This document shows, in pieces, positions 7,594 to 13,168 of a stretch of 41,956 nt of DNA (position 1 is the stretch's first letter; every line of letters begins with the position of its first letter). A model generated the notes under the pieces. The model worked only from the letters and a program-made list of their open reading frames with translations. It did no database searches and was not told the origin of the DNA. The translations under genes and the position numbers were made by a program. Location: contig NZ_AOJK01000014.1 of NCBI RefSeq assembly GCF_000336875.1, positions 23,182 through 65,137 on the forward strand, read 5' to 3'. Source of the DNA: Halorubrum californiense DSM 19288. Lineage in GTDB: Archaea; Halobacteriota; Halobacteria; Halobacteriales; Haloferacaceae.

Positions 7594-10488
7594 ATGGTAC
7601 GGCCCTCCCGTCGCCGCTTCCTCGGAGGAAGCGCCCTGACGCTCGCGACGCTGACAGGTGTTCTCTCTCCCGAAACCACCGTGAACGGTGCTGATCGACC
7701 GAGCGATCTCGATGTCGATATCTCGTCCCCGTTCGCCGACGTATTCCTCCCGCTCCCGACGGGCGATGCCCTCTCAACGACGTACGCGATGATTATCGCG
7801 GAGCGCGTCGACGCCGACACGGAAGCGGACCTGAGTTATCGCGCTCGGTCCGTGGCCGACCGGCTCGACATCGACGTCGACGAGCTGGCGGCGACCGCGT
7901 CGATCACTCCCTCCGAACGTGGAATCCAACTGGTGACGGCGGCCGGCGGGTTCGACCGTCCCGACCGCGGTGAGACGATCGCGGTCGGAGCGGGAGACGG
8001 GGTGTCCAGCGACGATGTCCCCGCGGCGGCCGAAACGACTGACGAACTCCCTGCCGGGTGGCGACTTACCGAGACCGACGAGGCAGCGTTCGTCGCCGGT
8101 GAGGGCGTGGCGGCTGCCGCGACTGGCGGGGATTCGTCGAGTCCCCGCGGTCGGTCGGACTCGTCGGCAGACGACATGAGCGAGCGACGGGTCGAAGCCG
8201 CTCGCGTTGCCGGCCGCGCGGCCGTCGATGAGGTCGACCGCTTTGCGGAGTCATCGCTGGGCACGGCTGCCCTCCCTCGGCTCGGTGGATTCGGAACAGT
8301 GCTTTTGGCCCCGGACGCCGCCGGCGGCCCGTTCCCGCTCTCGGTCCCCGACGACGTCGACGCGTTCGCCGCCGGCTTCGAGGCCGACCCGAACGACCTC
8401 AGAGATATCGACGGAACGGCGGAGAACGCATACGTGGTCCGTCCGGCTGGTGACCTCCACGGGGTCGACGACGAGACTGTCAGGCGACTCGTGCGTACCA
8501 TCGATCCCGCCGACCCCGTCGAGATGGACATCACGCGAACCGACGGCGTCGTGCTCGTCGACGCCGTCGTCGAGGCCCCGCCGGAACTCGACCGCGAGGC
8601 GTCGCCGGACGCCCACGTCCGGGCGCAGTTCGACCGCGACGCGGGCACCGTGACGTTCGAGCACGCCGAAGGCGAGGCGGTGCCGGTCGACGAACTGGAG
8701 GTGTGGCACGACGGCGAGGAGGTGAGCGACGCGGTCTTCGACGGCGAGGAGTTCACGGCAGGTGATACGATCGCCGTCGACACCGGACTGATCGCGACCG
8801 TCATGCTGCGGTGGTTCGACCCGGACGCGAACGTCTACGACACGTACGCTCGCGAACAGGTCGATCGCGAAGCGTTCGCTCTCGACTACGACATGCGCGC
8901 CGAGACGCTGGAACTCAGCTACGAGGCCGAGCGCCCCGCCGACGCGAGCAGCCTTCGGCTGGTCCACCGCGACGAGGGGGGCGTCGAAACAGTCGGCGAG
9001 GAATTCACCGGCGGAACGCTCGACCCGGGCGACGAAGTCACCGTCGCGGACGTGTCGATCGGCGATAGTGTACAGCTATCGTTCGACGTCGAGCGACCGA
9101 TGGGCGGCGGCTCGCTCGTTCATTACCGCGCCCGCCCCCCGCGCGTTTGGATCCACTCGCACGCCGAGGAGGGGACCACGGTCAGGTACGACGACGAGGA
9201 GTCTCGTCCCGCCGACGCGTTCGTGACCCTCGTCGACGGAGAGCCGACCGACGCGCAGTTCGCCGACGAGTACGACACGCTCTCGGGCGACGAGGAGCTG
9301 GTTCTCGGCGAGCTTCCGCTGGGGAGTACGGTCGCAGTCGAGTGGCGGAAGCCGGACGAGCCGGTGGTTGTCGCCGAACACGAGGTCGTTCCGAACACGC
9401 GCGCATCGATCGAGTACGACCCGGACGCCGGCGAGATTACGGTCCAGCACGCGCGCGGACGGACGCTTCCCGCGTCGGCGTTGGAGCTTCAGGTCGGCCG
9501 TTCCCCGGCCGACGTTCAGCCCGAAGACGAACTCGACGAGTTTGGGCCGGACGCCTCGTTCACCGCTCCGGTGCGGCCGCTCTCACGGGTTCGACTCGTG
9601 TGGACCGGCGGCGACCGCGAACACCATCTCGGTGGCACAACCACGGCACGCGACGCGGTCGCGGCGGCCTACGACGACGACGCCGAGGCGATGACGATCG
9701 AGTACGTCGGTGAGCAGCCCGCCGATCCCGACCGACTGCGCGTGTCGGTGAACGGTGCCGGTGACTTCCGGGGAGAAGACGATCAGGAGTCGGCATTCGC
9801 GGCCGAGCACGACGAACTAACCACGGGGGACACGATCACGGTCGACGACGTCGGGCTCGACGACACCGTGGTCGTCAGCGTTCACACAGAGTTCGAGAAC
9901 GGCTCGGCGACCAGCTCCGTCGCCCACTTCTCGGGGGCACCGCGCCACGGATTCATGGTCGACCGGGGTGGTAGGGGCGGCGATGAATCGGAGACGACGC
10001 TCCGCTACGTCGGCGACGTCCGCCGCGACGCCGACGCCTTCCGGGTGCTGATCGACGGCGAGCCCGCACCGACCCAGCCCGCCGACGAGACGGACCGACT
10101 GACCGACGGGGAGACGCTGTCGCTCGGCGATCCGGCCGCCGGCGCGACGATAACCGTCGAGTGGACCGCCGGCGACGAGACGCGAACCGTGCTGGAACAC
10201 GTGATCCCGCCGGAGGCGACCTTCGAGGTCGCGTACGAGTCGGCCGACGACGGCGAGGGCGGCCTCGTGACGTTCACCCACGCCGGCGGCGACGCGCTCG
10301 ACGCCGACCGCGTCGACGTGGTCGTCGAACCCGCGACCGACGGACTGCGCCCGTGGGACGACGACGCCGACGAGGTGACCGCCGGCGACGAGACGAGCGT
10401 CACGATCGACTCGGAGCCCGAGATGGCCGTCGTCGTCTTCAACGAGAGCGAGGTCCTCCACCGCGAACGGCTCGATCAGGACGAGTAG
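7594..10488 (+). CDS. Large Tat-exported protein with tandem pilin-head-like repeats
   Basis: The 964-residue, strongly acidic protein begins with a Tat signal (RPSRRRFLGGSALTLAT) with no lipobox cysteine. Residues of about 30-335 show no family I recognise; they include a Ser/Asp-rich stretch near 195-215. From about residue 340 to the end there are some seven degenerate units of 75-110 residues, starting near 343, 430, 517, 604, 687, 800 and 875. Each has the order TVTFEHAEGEAV, a short strand (LEVWHDGE), F.AGDTI.VD, then a VRLVW-type strand. This matches the beta-sandwich head of haloarchaeal PilA pilins. A TATA box lies 25 bases before the ATG. A surface adhesin or cell-wall fibre is plausible but unproven. 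Confidence 0.8.
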   Translation: MVRPSRRRFLGGSALTLATLTGVLSPETTVNGADRPSDLDVDISSPFADVFLPLPTGDALSTTYAMIIAERVDADTEADLSYRARSVADRLDIDVDELAATASITPSERGIQLVTAAGGFDRPDRGETIAVGAGDGVSSDDVPAAAETTDELPAGWRLTETDEAAFVAGEGVAAAATGGDSSSPRGRSDSSADDMSERRVEAARVAGRAAVDEVDRFAESSLGTAALPRLGGFGTVLLAPDAAGGPFPLSVPDDVDAFAAGFEADPNDLRDIDGTAENAYVVRPAGDLHGVDDETVRRLVRTIDPADPVEMDITRTDGVVLVDAVVEAPPELDREASPDAHVRAQFDRDAGTVTFEHAEGEAVPVDELEVWHDGEEVSDAVFDGEEFTAGDTIAVDTGLIATVMLRWFDPDANVYDTYAREQVDREAFALDYDMRAETLELSYEAERPADASSLRLVHRDEGGVETVGEEFTGGTLDPGDEVTVADVSIGDSVQLSFDVERPMGGGSLVHYRARPPRVWIHSHAEEGTTVRYDDEESRPADAFVTLVDGEPTDAQFADEYDTLSGDEELVLGELPLGSTVAVEWRKPDEPVVVAEHEVVPNTRASIEYDPDAGEITVQHARGRTLPASALELQVGRSPADVQPEDELDEFGPDASFTAPVRPLSRVRLVWTGGDREHHLGGTTTARDAVAAAYDDDAEAMTIEYVGEQPADPDRLRVSVNGAGDFRGEDDQESAFAAEHDELTTGDTITVDDVGLDDTVVVSVHTEFENGSATSSVAHFSGAPRHGFMVDRGGRGGDESETTLRYVGDVRRDADAFRVLIDGEPAPTQPADETDRLTDGETLSLGDPAAGATITVEWTAGDETRTVLEHVIPPEATFEVAYESADDGEGGLVTFTHAGGDALDADRVDVVVEPATDGLRPWDDDADEVTAGDETSVTIDSEPEMAVVVFNESEVLHRERLDQDE

Positions 10489-10509
10489 GAGAGTATTCCA
10501 CCGAGGTGC

Positions 10510-10662
10510 GTGGTAATCGATGCTGCGCTCGCGCACCCGTTTTACTCAGAAGAGAACATCTGCGAGGCTCGCGATGAATTGGACCCAGCAATGATTCAAA
10601 AATTCAATACTGCTGTCCTTGGACTACGATACCGAAGACAAATAGAATCTAAGTGGAGGTGA
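10510..10662 (+). other. Possible small ORF or gene remnant, lower GC than its neighbours
   Basis: A 50-codon frame opens with GTG at 10510 and ends in TGA at 10660-10662. It encodes VVIDAALAHPFYSEENICEA, then about 24 further residues, then RQIESKWR. The composition looks protein-like, and many codons end in A or T, unlike the flanking genes. There is no clear promoter and no family I recognise. It could be the 3' end of a gene brought in by a mobile element. It lies between the repeat protein and the convergent pilin gene. Confidence 0.3.
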
Positions 10663-10683
10663 CTCTATCAGCAGCCTACCGAT

Positions 10684-11109
10684 TTAGCTGCCGAAGTCGA
10701 CATCTTCCTCGAAGATGGCGTTCCCACTCGGATCGTGGATTATTCTGACCGTTTGTGTACCGCTATACAGACCACTGCCGGAGTAGTTTCCTACTTTTTC
10801 CGACCCACTTTGCCAGTCTTCATCTGGGAACGCATCGGGGTAGCGCTCTCCGTCAATCGAGAGGACGAGATCACCAGCGGCAACCGTCTGCCCACCGGTT
10901 TTGGCGAATGTAATATTGCCATTCGAATCGCTCACATTTGTAACGTCGAAACTTGCCTGCGGCGCGGTGTCACCTAACTGATCGCCGAGTCCGAGAACGA
11001 ACGTCCCGATAACGGCCGCCAGGATGACGGTAATCGCGACCATGAGGATGACGCCGATGACGGGACTCACTGCCCTGTCGTCCGCGTTGGATTGGTTGCG
11101 TGGTTTCAT
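10684..11109 (-). CDS. Type IV pilin (PilA-like)
   Basis: This 141-residue pilin subunit builds adhesion pili. A short polar leader ends in NADDR, followed by AVSPVIGVILMVAITVILAA, the conserved assembly helix of haloarchaeal pilins; the prepilin peptidase PibD should cut just before it. After about residue 45 comes the head domain: ASFDVTN, NITFAKTGGQTVAAGDLVLS, a Gly/Ser-rich loop and TVRIIHDPSGNAIFEEDVDF. A TATA-like GTTATACT (minus strand, near 11214-11221) suggests a leader of roughly 80 bases. The head resembles the repeat units of the large exported protein at 7594-10488, so the two may share origin or surface location. No pilus ATPase or PilC gene is nearby, which is normal because pilA genes are scattered. 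Confidence 0.92.
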   Translation of the reverse strand: MKPRNQSNADDRAVSPVIGVILMVAITVILAAVIGTFVLGLGDQLGDTAPQASFDVTNVSDSNGNITFAKTGGQTVAAGDLVLSIDGERYPDAFPDEDWQSGSEKVGNYSGSGLYSGTQTVRIIHDPSGNAIFEEDVDFGS

Positions 11110-11267
11110 AGTTTGAACCCAGCGGCCACCGCCGAACGAGGTCTCGGGGACTCGGGTGCCGTCGTCGACCCCGCGGACAATCCCGAACCCGTTCAGATCG
11201 GTTGCTGGTTGAGTATAACGAGGCGTATCGCCCTTATGTACTTATTGCCGCGAATATCAGCGGTGAA

Positions 11268-11290
11268 AATTTGACGGGCAGAGTCAAATT
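11268..11290. repeat. 8-base inverted repeat over the promoter of the HTH/LAGLIDADG gene
   Basis: Arms AATTTGAC (11268-11275) and GTCAAATT (11283-11290) are perfect inverted copies separated by seven bases. The right arm sits about 25 bases before the ATG at 11313, where a leaderless TATA box would be. It could be an operator, possibly for autoregulation. No direct evidence exists. Confidence 0.4.
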
Positions 11291-11312
11291 CGTTGACGTG
11301 TGTGGTGTGGCT

Positions 11313-12089
11313 ATGGAACCCACGGCGCCCTCCCTCTCCCGGACCTACAGCGACCGCGTGTACCCGGACCCGTGGGAGAAGGTCCTCGACTACCGCCGCG
11401 TCCGCGAGTACGCGGCCGACCACCCGACCGCCGGCCGGGTCCGCGTCGGGCGAGCGCTCGACCTCCCCGCCGAGCGCGTCCGCGGGTGGCTCGACGACGC
11501 CGTCCCCGACCCCGTCCGGGGGATCGACACCGCGGCCGACCGCGGCTGGCTCGACCCCGGCCCGGAGGGCGAGGCGGCCGCCGCGCTCGTCGAACTGCTC
11601 GCGCACGTCCTCGCCGGCGGGAGCATCCCGGCCGGGAACTACGTCCCGGCCGTGACGCCGGGCGAGCGCGTGCGCGCCGCGGAGATCCGCGCCGCGTTCG
11701 AGCGCGTCGGTGCCGAGACGCGCACCCGCAACGCCGACGCCCCCGGCCGCGCGGTCGAAGTCGTCCCCACCTGCGACGGGACGGTCCTCGGTCGGTGTCT
11801 CGTCGCGATGGGCGCGCCGACCGGCCCGAAGACGTCGCTCGACCATCTCCCCGCGGTCGTGTGGGACGTGCCGCGGGCGATCCGGCGGTCGTTCGCACGG
11901 ACCTACGTCCGACACCGCGGACTGAACTACGCCGACAAGTCGACGACGCGCGTACAGGTCGAACGCCCCCGTTCGTTCATCGCGGAGCTCCGCGACGTGC
12001 TCGACGACGTCCTCGACGAGGGCGTCAGCACGGCCGACGCCGGGCTCACCATCTCGGCGGACGCCGCCCGCGAACTCGGCGTCGAGTAG
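11313..12089 (+). CDS. Helix-turn-helix protein with an inactive LAGLIDADG-type fold
   Basis: The ATG at 11313 (MEPTAPSLSR) gives 258 residues. About residues 28-60 form a helix-turn-helix (DYRRVREYAAD..GRVRVGRALDLPAERVRGWL). The rest follows the two-fold plan of LAGLIDADG homing endonucleases. The first motif is ELLAHVLAGGSI near 94-107. TVLGRCLVAMGAPTGPKTS mirrors the GrLLvaLGaPvGnKt block, and VPRAIRRSFARTYVRHRG near 187-204 stands where a second RRxFlRGlfDGDG motif would be. The catalytic acids are gone in both: AGG for DGG, and RHRG for DGDG. It should bind DNA without cutting, so a domesticated regulator is the best reading. An inverted repeat covers its promoter. Confidence 0.7.
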   Translation: MEPTAPSLSRTYSDRVYPDPWEKVLDYRRVREYAADHPTAGRVRVGRALDLPAERVRGWLDDAVPDPVRGIDTAADRGWLDPGPEGEAAAALVELLAHVLAGGSIPAGNYVPAVTPGERVRAAEIRAAFERVGAETRTRNADAPGRAVEVVPTCDGTVLGRCLVAMGAPTGPKTSLDHLPAVVWDVPRAIRRSFARTYVRHRGLNYADKSTTRVQVERPRSFIAELRDVLDDVLDEGVSTADAGLTISADAARELGVE

Positions 12090-12163
12090 CGCCGATCCCC
12101 CGGAACAGAGCGCCCTCGCCCGGTGACCCAAACCACTTGCCCGGGGGGGCCGTCGCTCCGCAC

Positions 12164-13168
12164 ATGAGCACTCCGGCACCTGAGCCGCCCAGCCTCGAAT
12201 TCGGCGTCCTCGGCACCGCCGGGATCGCGCGCAAAGCGGTGATCCCGGCGATCGCCGCCAGCGACCACGCGGTCGGCGCGGTGGCGTCCCGCGACGCCGA
12301 CCGCGCCGAGCGGTTCGCGGCCGAGAACGCGATCCCCCGCAGCTACGGCTCCTACGAGGCGCTCCTCGACGACGACGGGCTCGACGCGGTGTACGTCCCG
12401 CTCCCGAACGGCCGCCACGCCGAGTGGACGAAACGCGCCGCGGACGCGGGCCTACACGTCCTCTGCGAGAAGCCGCTGGCCGCCGACGCCGACGAGGCGC
12501 GGGCGGTCGTCGACCACTGCGACGAGCGCGGCGTCACGCTGATGGAGGCGTTCATGTACCGGTACCACCCGCGCACCGAGCGCGCCGTCGCGCTCGCGGC
12601 GACCGAACTCGACGACGTCCGCACGGTGACGGGCACCTTCCGCTTCCCGCTGTACAACCGCCCGAACGACGTGCGGCTCGACCCCGACCTCGCGGGCGGG
12701 TCGCTGATGGACGTCGGCTGCTACCCCGTCTCGCTCGCCCGGACGGTGCTCGGGGAGCCCGACCGCGCGCACGCCCACGCCGGCGACACCCGCGACGCCG
12801 GGGTCGACACGGAGCTCGCGGGCGTGCTGGCGTACGACGACGGCCGCTCGGCGCGGGTCGCCGCCGGCTTCGACACGCAGCTGGTCCAGCGGTACCGGAT
12901 CGACGCGACGAACGGCTGGGTCGAGGTCGAGCGCGCGTTCGACGCCCCGACCGACGAGGCGGTCGAACTGGCGTACGAGATCGACGGCCGACACGGCGTC
13001 GAGACGTTCCCCGCGGTCGACCAGTACCGGCTTCAGGTCGACCACTTCGCCGAGCGCGTCGCCGACGGGACCGCCCCCCTGACCGACGGAGCGGAGGCGA
13101 TCGCGAACATGAATATCATCGACGCGCTCGCAGAAAGCGCCGCCGACGGCGGTCCCGTCGACCTCTGA
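12164..13168 (+). CDS. Gfo/Idh/MocA-family sugar dehydrogenase
   Basis: This is a 334-residue NAD(P)-dependent oxidoreductase of the glucose-fructose oxidoreductase family. The ATG at 12164 (MSTPAPEPPS) precedes the Rossmann motif GVLGTAGIARK near residue 15. The conserved CEKPLA with the catalytic-site lysine is near 98, followed by LMEAFMYRYHP near 126 and SLMDVGCYPVS near 178. Relatives in haloarchaea oxidise aldose sugars such as xylose or glucose to lactones with NADP. Beside galactosidases and a galactonate dehydratase, it is a candidate galactose 1-dehydrogenase, but substrate cannot be read from sequence. It is a lone plus-strand gene convergent with the kinase. Confidence 0.87.
   Translation: MSTPAPEPPSLEFGVLGTAGIARKAVIPAIAASDHAVGAVASRDADRAERFAAENAIPRSYGSYEALLDDDGLDAVYVPLPNGRHAEWTKRAADAGLHVLCEKPLAADADEARAVVDHCDERGVTLMEAFMYRYHPRTERAVALAATELDDVRTVTGTFRFPLYNRPNDVRLDPDLAGGSLMDVGCYPVSLARTVLGEPDRAHAHAGDTRDAGVDTELAGVLAYDDGRSARVAAGFDTQLVQRYRIDATNGWVEVERAFDAPTDEAVELAYEIDGRHGVETFPAVDQYRLQVDHFAERVADGTAPLTDGAEAIANMNIIDALAESAADGGPVDL

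Follow-up and report, generated by a model that had tools for sequence, protein, structure and literature searches.

WhiA is the best known example of a homing endonuclease that was turned into a regulator. It joins a degenerate two-motif LAGLIDADG domain, which lacks the metal-binding and catalytic residues, to a helix-turn-helix (HTH) domain. What the dead nuclease domain does was given as unknown in 2013, and this domain of WhiA does not footprint DNA when isolated (PMC3781837). Here we describe a family of haloarchaeal proteins by way of one member that is encoded in a stretch of 41,956 nucleotides from Halorubrum californiense DSM 19288 (contig NZ_AOJK01000014.1), hereafter the window. 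Like WhiA, the window protein has a degenerate LAGLIDADG domain (Z = 14.7 against WhiA). An HTH-like domain is predicted in it as well (pLDDT 89), with no significant HTH match. However, the HTH of WhiA is C-terminal (PMC3781837), whereas in the window protein the HTH-like domain (residues 20-76) comes first and is followed by the LAGLIDADG domain (residues 83-258). Also, WhiA is described as present in essentially all Gram-positive bacteria (PMC3781837), whereas the window family is a patchy accessory gene of haloarchaea, and its partner genes encode pilins or S-layer proteins. The WhiA/DUF199 models of Pfam and NCBIfam did not match the window protein (no family at E ≤ 10). Overall, the window protein resembles WhiA in architecture, with the order of domains reversed, yet it is not a member of WhiA by the tests that we ran.

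A second point of comparison is the LAGLIDADG_3 domain of the inteins in DNA gyrase B (GyrB), which is similar to the window protein over profile positions 84-214 and which has an HTH_3 domain ahead of the nuclease domain. In contrast to the window family, which is free-standing and appears to be dead as a nuclease, these inteins have intact DGS motifs and a splicing domain and lie inside a host protein. The family itself has already been clustered, as phrog_14115 of the PHROGs database (full-length matches to the window protein, E = 3.5e-105, and to gp09 of the virus SNJ2, E = 8.1e-121), but this entry has no function or description.

Two reports touch on the genomic setting. The pilA2 glycosylation locus of Haloferax is described as including a free-standing LAGLIDADG_2 (PF03161) gene, which was called an endonuclease (PMC5867893). 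This gene is similar to ours in that it is a free-standing LAGLIDADG gene in a pilin-containing locus, but, comparing by family assignment only, PF03161 is not among the 20 families that were matched by 24 members of the window family. Also, the section on regulation in a census of archaeal type IV pili (T4P) names ATPases, TFIIB homologues, and further regulators beside T4P loci (PMC4858521); regulator genes adjoin type IV pilus loci there, as the window family does. No LAGLIDADG protein is mentioned in that main section ("Regulation of T4P Expression," PMC4858521). In the open literature that our searches covered, the only item on point for LAGLIDADG proteins and (type IV) pilins was the Haloferax pilA2 locus (PMC5867893); no link was drawn among homing endonucleases, halobacteria, regulators, and pilins; and nothing was on point for domesticated LAGLIDADG proteins in archaea. 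The words pilin, pilus, and pili are absent from the main text of a pleolipovirus study, and the words pilin and pili are absent from a paper on pR1SE-type plasmids.

A Conserved Gene in Halorubrum

The preliminary description of this DNA had reported an open reading frame at 11313-12089, and this was borne out: the frame, on the forward strand, is uninterrupted by stops and its translation has 258 amino acids.

11313..12089, + strand: gene for the LAGLIDADG and HTH protein, predicted to be nuclease-dead (open reading frame; the matches of its relatives start at query residue 1 in 22/22)

The source genome is 3.68 Mb in 83 contigs. At all 22 of 22 loci, the named close relatives of the window protein are from Halorubrum, and a match was found in 38 of the 52 Halorubrum genomes that we searched (a few of these are mere remnants). 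Compared to nine Halorubrum orthologues, the dN/dS of the window gene is 0.12-0.37; in the same comparisons, residues 1-85 give 0.09-0.30 and the remainder of the protein gives 0.14-0.46. The gene is under purifying selection. Because of these low ratios and the matches in 38/52 genomes of the genus, the reading frame is not due to chance.

A LAGLIDADG Fold

The preliminary description had claimed the layout of a two-motif LAGLIDADG protein, including a block that is seen in intein nucleases. We found both helices and the block GRCLVAMGAPTGPKT:

11571..11624, + strand: first LAGLIDADG helix, residues 87-104 (...LLAHVLAGGS), from the profile alignment with inteins, the model, and the structural match
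11790..11831, + strand: block GRCLVAMGAPTGPKT at residues 160-174 (GRCLVAMGAPTGPK is residues 160-173), from the profile alignment; R161 in 169/169
11874..11924, + strand: second LAGLIDADG helix, residues 188-204 (...FARTYVRHRGL), from the profile alignment and the model

With the window protein as the sole query, a search of 170 genomes found two GyrB inteins (E = 1.6e-6 and 7.6e-5, each per one genome), which are near-identical and from the same other genus, so they count as one observation. The matching part is the LAGLIDADG region inside the DNA gyrase B intein. In the profile alignment, LLGFYAADGS and LRGYLHGDGS of the intein lie opposite LLAHVLAGGS and ARTYVRHRGL of the window protein. 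(The core of the motif-1 helix, LLAHVLAGGSI, is residues 95-105, and the core of the motif-2 helix, RSFARTYVRHRGL, is residues 192-204.) A profile-profile comparison with the GyrB intein (hhalign) gave E = 0.00029 with a Prob of just 40.5%. In Pfam, one of the GyrB intein proteins has LAGLIDADG_3 (PF14528), Intein_splicing, and HTH_3 ahead of the nuclease part. (The second intein-bearing gyrB of that genus has an extra insertion in the same gene; Pfam was run on the first only.) Neither Pfam nor NCBIfam gave any family for the window protein at E ≤ 10, none of the 20 Pfam families matched by 24 diverse members was a LAGLIDADG model, and a search of PDB sequences with the window protein gave three weak matches, all to unrelated enzymes (best E = 0.031). 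Taken by itself, sequence is moderate evidence for membership in LAGLIDADG. As for the profile search against LAGLIDADG families that the preliminary description had suggested, no Pfam model matched; the homology to the GyrB intein (E = 1.6e-6) came from the search with the window protein as the sole query.

The fold was modeled with template-free AlphaFold2 from 21 sequences; the best model had a mean pLDDT of 74 and the four others had 44-57. Residues ~83-258 of the model matched the nuclease of the TliVMA intein (7qsu; Z = 15.1, 3.1 Å, 166 residues) and WhiA (8dy7; Z = 14.7, 2.9 Å, 166 residues). The model also matched I-DmoI (4unb; Z = 13.3), with residues 86-258 placed on residues 5-179 of I-DmoI, and the bI3 maturase (Z = 7.8). 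Hence, a predicted fold unrelated to LAGLIDADG, which would have spoken against the original claim, is not what we obtained (Z = 15.1, 14.7, and 13.3). As a predicted fold, the window protein belongs to the LAGLIDADG superfamily.

Loss of the Catalytic Acids

The claim that both catalytic acids are replaced (AGG, RHRG) also held up: G102 and R202 lie opposite Asp in the inteins.

11616..11618, + strand: former catalytic acid 1, now Gly102 (acid in 0/170, Gly in 126/170; Asp in the inteins)
11916..11918, + strand: former catalytic acid 2, now Arg202 (acid in 0/168, Arg in 161/168; Asp in the inteins)

The acid is absent from site 1 in all 170 nonredundant rows of the family alignment and from site 2 in all 168 rows that have a residue there, although close relatives were retained and so these counts are not independent. 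(Before counting, we set aside the two inteins, rows with fewer than 150 aligned residues, and exact duplicates of aligned sequences.) In other words, the acid that ends both helices in LAGLIDADG homing endonucleases was found in 0/170 and 0/168 rows. The preliminary description had proposed checking whether the dead sites are conserved or whether some relatives have intact motifs; across these rows the sites are consistently without the acid, and the acid-bearing GyrB inteins are outside of the free-standing family. Nearby, G103 is invariant (170/170 rows) and R161 is present in 169/169 rows. By simple offset from the aligned ranges (our own arithmetic), G102 falls at residue 21 of I-DmoI, whose catalytic acids are Asp21 and Glu117. 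Because Arg is found in 161 of the 168 rows at site 2, the second acid was replaced by one particular residue, which is more than mere loss.

Could the protein still be a nuclease that cuts via non-canonical residues? Nothing beyond the fold favors this. It seems very improbable because the acids are missing at both sites in every row that we examined and because an Arg at site 2 would disfavor metal binding.

The N-Terminal Domain

11436..11492, + strand: predicted helix-turn-helix, residues 42-60, within a helical domain at 20-76 (model pLDDT 89; W59 conserved)

When modeled alone, the N-terminal helical domain is HTH-like (pLDDT 89), and W59 is present in all 168 rows that have a residue at that position. 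Similarity to described HTH families was weak. Among the HTH models of Pfam, none matched the 24 members at better than E = 0.006 (about 8 of the 20 weak families are HTH by name). A double-length member scanned against Pfam gave 10 weak families, all of them HTH and none over the cut-off. A profile of 24 rows compared to PDB sequences gave homeobox/homeodomain matches to the HTH region, with a best E of only 0.056, and a search of solved structures with the HTH domain alone (Foldseek) gave mostly HTH regulators, which were not significant (best E = 0.36). This domain is probably an HTH, as modeled, of an unnamed class.

The preliminary description had stated that an N-terminal HTH was added to the nuclease fold. 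An HTH-like domain is indeed predicted (pLDDT 89), but it need not be an addition made in the course of domestication, given that an HTH (HTH_3) also precedes the LAGLIDADG domain of the related GyrB intein.

Linkage to Adhesion Pilins

The window gene is transcribed away from a pilin gene:

10684..11109, - strand: divergent partner gene, PilA-like archaeal adhesion type IV pilin of 141 amino acids (Pilin_N PF07790, E = 5e-24)
11110..11312, no strand: intergenic region shared by the two divergent genes, with 203 bp from one start codon to the other (from the coordinates of both genes)

This arrangement is common in the family. Using a relaxed pilin pattern (S is allowed before AVSP), we found a PilA H-domain at most 1.6 kb from 144 of 162 nonredundant family genes and no PilA within 1.6 kb of the other 18. 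Of the 144 pairs, 110 are divergent, 32 have the family gene downstream of the pilin on the same strand, and 2 have other orientations. The 162 genes were chosen by the same exclusions as the rows above, with close relatives kept, so these counts too are not independent. When we clustered the neighboring genes, only the pilin, apart from the family gene itself, recurred in most loci (89/114, with some places fetched twice); the runner-up was in 20/114. In a second set of fetched loci, mostly from other taxonomic families, 72/77 were paired with a pilin. If we remove three records from the window's own taxonomic family (Halorubrum, Halobellus, and Haloplanus), then 71/74 are paired, including the variant pilin at locus L217. 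As the window pilin has just three matches in the window genome, including a weak one, and Pilin_N exceeds its cut-off there six times, we estimate that the chance of a pilin being adjacent is about 0.003-0.005 per 3.2 kb (our own arithmetic). In genomes, then, the family gene is partnered with PilA, the adhesion pilin of archaea; this linkage is the new finding here.

The pilins do not depend on the family gene for their presence. Within Halorubrum, 51/52 genomes have a pilin match, versus 38/52 with a match to the family. Because 13 of the 14 Halorubrum genomes without a detectable family copy (14/52) do have a pilin match, the family protein is dispensable for having pilins.

Because of its domain content and its linkage to pilin genes, we propose that the window protein is a domesticated, nuclease-dead LAGLIDADG protein that, as a dedicated regulator, binds DNA to control the transcription of the adjacent surface gene, which here is PilA (probability of about 0.6). 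The preliminary description had suggested a conversion from nuclease to DNA-binding regulator like that of WhiA; our results support domestication, and the pilin linkage points to a specific likely role. If so, a homing endonuclease would have been domesticated and would have lost its ability to cut, while the LAGLIDADG saddle would still grip DNA. Arg202 and other conserved basic residues might contact phosphates where Mg2+ once sat, and the N-terminal HTH would provide a second DNA contact. When bound to the promoter region between the two divergent genes, the protein would control the expression of the pilin and/or of its own gene. In the double-length members, discussed below, two full units are fused together, and for most of them the partner gene encodes an S-layer-like protein or another secreted surface protein.

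Distribution, Plasmids, and a Virus

The family is widespread but patchy. Matches were found in 130/292 genomes of Halobacteria and in 47/77 genera (E ≤ 1e-5; some of these are weak), and within the window's own taxonomic family they were found in 76/170 genomes (E ≤ 1e-3). When 15 genomes without the gene were searched again at E ≤ 1, 4 had weak matches, the best of which (E = 2.4e-4) lies within a frame of 983 amino acids. Also, N-terminal pieces of the family gene lie beside other pilins (L050:7660-8088, L053, L105, and L107:9098-9364); such truncated pieces suggest repeated loss.

The patchy distribution and the remnants might instead indicate a decayed free-standing homing gene, that is, a functionless hitch-hiker beside the pilin that it formerly targeted. 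Conserved sequences such as the PilA H-domain are of the kind that homing enzymes target. Nevertheless, we consider this quite improbable, as it does not account for the dN/dS of 0.12-0.37, for the same substitution being found across the family (Arg at site 2 in 161/168), or for the matches in 47/77 genera, some of them weak.

The family gene was also matched in 21 plasmid records. In 9/9 plasmid records that we opened for pairing, a gene annotated as a pilin (type IV pilin or archaellin/type IV pilin) lies beside it. These include pNRC200 of Halobacterium salinarum and pR1SE2 of Halorubrum lacusprofundi, and the others are from Natrinema, Haloterrigena, Natronorubrum, Halobacterium noricense, Haloarcula, Halobellus, and Natronosalvus. 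A tenth plasmid that we opened, from Haloplanus, has csg in place of the pilin. In the temperate pleolipovirus SNJ2, the pair is gp09 (the family member) and gp10 (with the PilA H-domain). Of the 20 plasmid records listed, 19 label the family gene "hypothetical protein," as do both virus records, and one partial match falls under an ABC-transporter label. (SNJ2 gp10 itself, a PilA-type adhesion pilin at L161 10942-11406 of NC_074646.1, is annotated as "hypothetical protein" as well. Also, the annotated starts of VNG_RS13700, at L162 5172-5768, and LT974_RS17690, at L167 3172-3789, are well inside the match and omit the N-terminal HTH region. VNG_RS13700, whose pilin partner in Halobacterium salinarum NRC-1 is VNG_RS12020, probably begins farther upstream than annotated.) Scans of viral contigs with the window protein, SNJ2 gp09, and a Natrinema member gave no confirmed relative; such single-query scans detect close relatives only.

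The copies on plasmids and on a virus could also be explained if the protein, instead of acting in transcription, served to swap or convert pilin genes (by recombination or cassette exchange), with the pair travelling as a unit and often leaving remnants. The truncated N-terminal pieces beside other pilins would fit, as would an integrase-like gene family (by eye) in 20/114 fetched loci and the integrases annotated close to the pair in the plasmids of Halobacterium noricense and Halobellus. This seems unlikely to us because the residues for cutting DNA are absent and because the integrase-like genes are in a minority of loci; also, the remnants fit simple gene loss.

A separate observation is that 14 loci (L035, L036, L037, L047, L052, L055, L059, L063, L065, L073, L076, L078, L094, and L107) share a gene family that looks, by eye, like a Tat-type secreted protein, and several of them also have an integrase-like gene (by eye). 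Perhaps these 14 loci are integrated pleolipovirus-like elements.

Partners Other than Pilins

Eight family genes are double-length, with two full units. One of these is divergent from a pilin, and the other seven have no pilin nearby. For 5 of these 7, the fetched stretch contains an S-layer-like protein; the neighbor of the double-length gene in Haloplanus is annotated as csg, "HVO_2072 family ArtA-dependent S-layer glycoprotein." The sixth (L087) adjoins another protein that appears, by eye, to be secreted, and for the seventh (L093) we saw no surface-protein neighbor. Three single-unit members that lack a pilin (L079, L082, and L095) adjoin PGF-CTERM proteins (identified with Pfam for L082 and L095 and by pattern only for L079). 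As the neighbors of family members are pilins, S-layer-like proteins, or PGF-CTERM proteins, the usual partner of the family gene is a major surface protein.

The loci with S-layer-like genes near a double-length gene are L071, L077, L080 (the same place as L171), L089, and L092. The two genes are divergent in L089 and L092, and in L071 there is an extra frame between them.

The pilA Promoter and Leader

11255..11273, - strand: conserved pilA-promoter element AATTTTC-N5-TGATA (pilin strand), also upstream of an unlinked second pilin on another contig
11233..11245, - strand: probable TATA element of the pilin, TAAGTACATAAG (pilin strand)

A conserved element in the pilA promoter was a candidate for the operator of the family protein. 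In Halorubrum, this element (AATTTTC-N5-TGATA) is immediately upstream of the probable TATA. If up to one mismatch is allowed, it is found at three sites in the window genome: the promoters of both strong pilins and the end of an unrelated frame. In the second set of loci, a related form, TTTCA-N4-TGA[TG]A, is present in 36 of 61 divergent intergenic regions, and in 33 of these 36 it is 126-130 bp before the start of the family gene (in SNJ2, it is at 151 bp). Across the 292 genomes, TTTCA-N4-TGATAATCA has 59 sites, as compared to one site for the reversed pattern. Of 30 of these 59 sites that we inspected, 27 are 224-355 bp from a PilA motif.

However, the element is not confined to pilins that have the family gene next to them. 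Nine of the 30 inspected TTTCA-N4-TGATAATCA sites are in genomes that lack the family, and 8 of these 9 are among the 27 that lie 224-355 bp from a PilA motif. Among 34 pilins in 30 fetched Halorubrum loci, which are a subset of the pilins found, TTTC-N5-TGATA precedes 17/24 pilins in genomes with a family member and 7/10 pilins in 7 genomes without a detected member (6 of the 7 genomes). The idea that the element is the operator of the family protein is thus weakened: because it lies before unlinked pilins and in genomes that lack a member, the element is a property of the pilins and not of the family gene. A factor that acts on pilA more generally probably uses this dyad-like element as its operator. 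(Some of the Halorubrum pilins in family-less genomes seem, by eye, to keep a decayed start of the family gene upstream, and at such pilins the loss of the family gene may be recent.) Among inverted repeats within single intergenic regions, only 1 of 46 regions (L037) beat the best of 30 shuffles.

We also considered the pilA mRNA. In the window, 11115-11123 and 11200-11211, near the pilin start and about 80 bp upstream of it, are complementary arms of the pilA leader. In one genome family, such arms pair better within sequences than between them (36 sequences, 0/2000 permutations), but the pairing was not significant in two Halorubrum groups (27 sequences, 576/2000; 10 sequences, 658/2000). 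A search of the window at 10400-12400 against Rfam gave one match, below the gathering score (E = 0.33). It is possible that the pilA leader is structured, given a pairing test that ignores relatedness. The family protein might, then, be a maturase-like regulator that binds a structured 5' leader of the pilA mRNA and controls translation or stability. Some LAGLIDADG proteins do act on RNA, the bI3 maturase matches the model (Z = 7.8), and the arms in the 36 sequences (0/2000) would fit. Nonetheless, we doubt this strongly because the pairing was insignificant in both Halorubrum groups (576/2000 and 658/2000), because the leader sequence is kept at Halorubrum pilins that lack the family gene, and because the HTH points to DNA.

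Implications

If the family protein is a transcriptional regulator of the adjacent surface gene, then it would be an archaeal counterpart to WhiA, with the opposite order of domains, with relatives among inteins that are intact, and with an obvious candidate target as its neighbor. The adhesion pilins of haloarchaea would also gain a candidate controller, and the finding suggests a role for proteins that are annotated as "hypothetical," one of which is viral. As pNRC200 of Halobacterium salinarum NRC-1 carries the pair, the regulator proposal is open to genetic test.

A broader idea, which is possible but toward which we are rather skeptical, is that "surface cassettes" are exchanged among haloarchaea, their plasmids, and at least one temperate virus. 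Each cassette would pair the gene for a major surface protein with a controller of its own, descended from a homing endonuclease that can no longer cut. The S-layer cassettes would have the double-length partner. If this is true, then surface cassettes would let an incoming element bring and control a new cell surface, which would affect adhesion, mating, and the entry of viruses.
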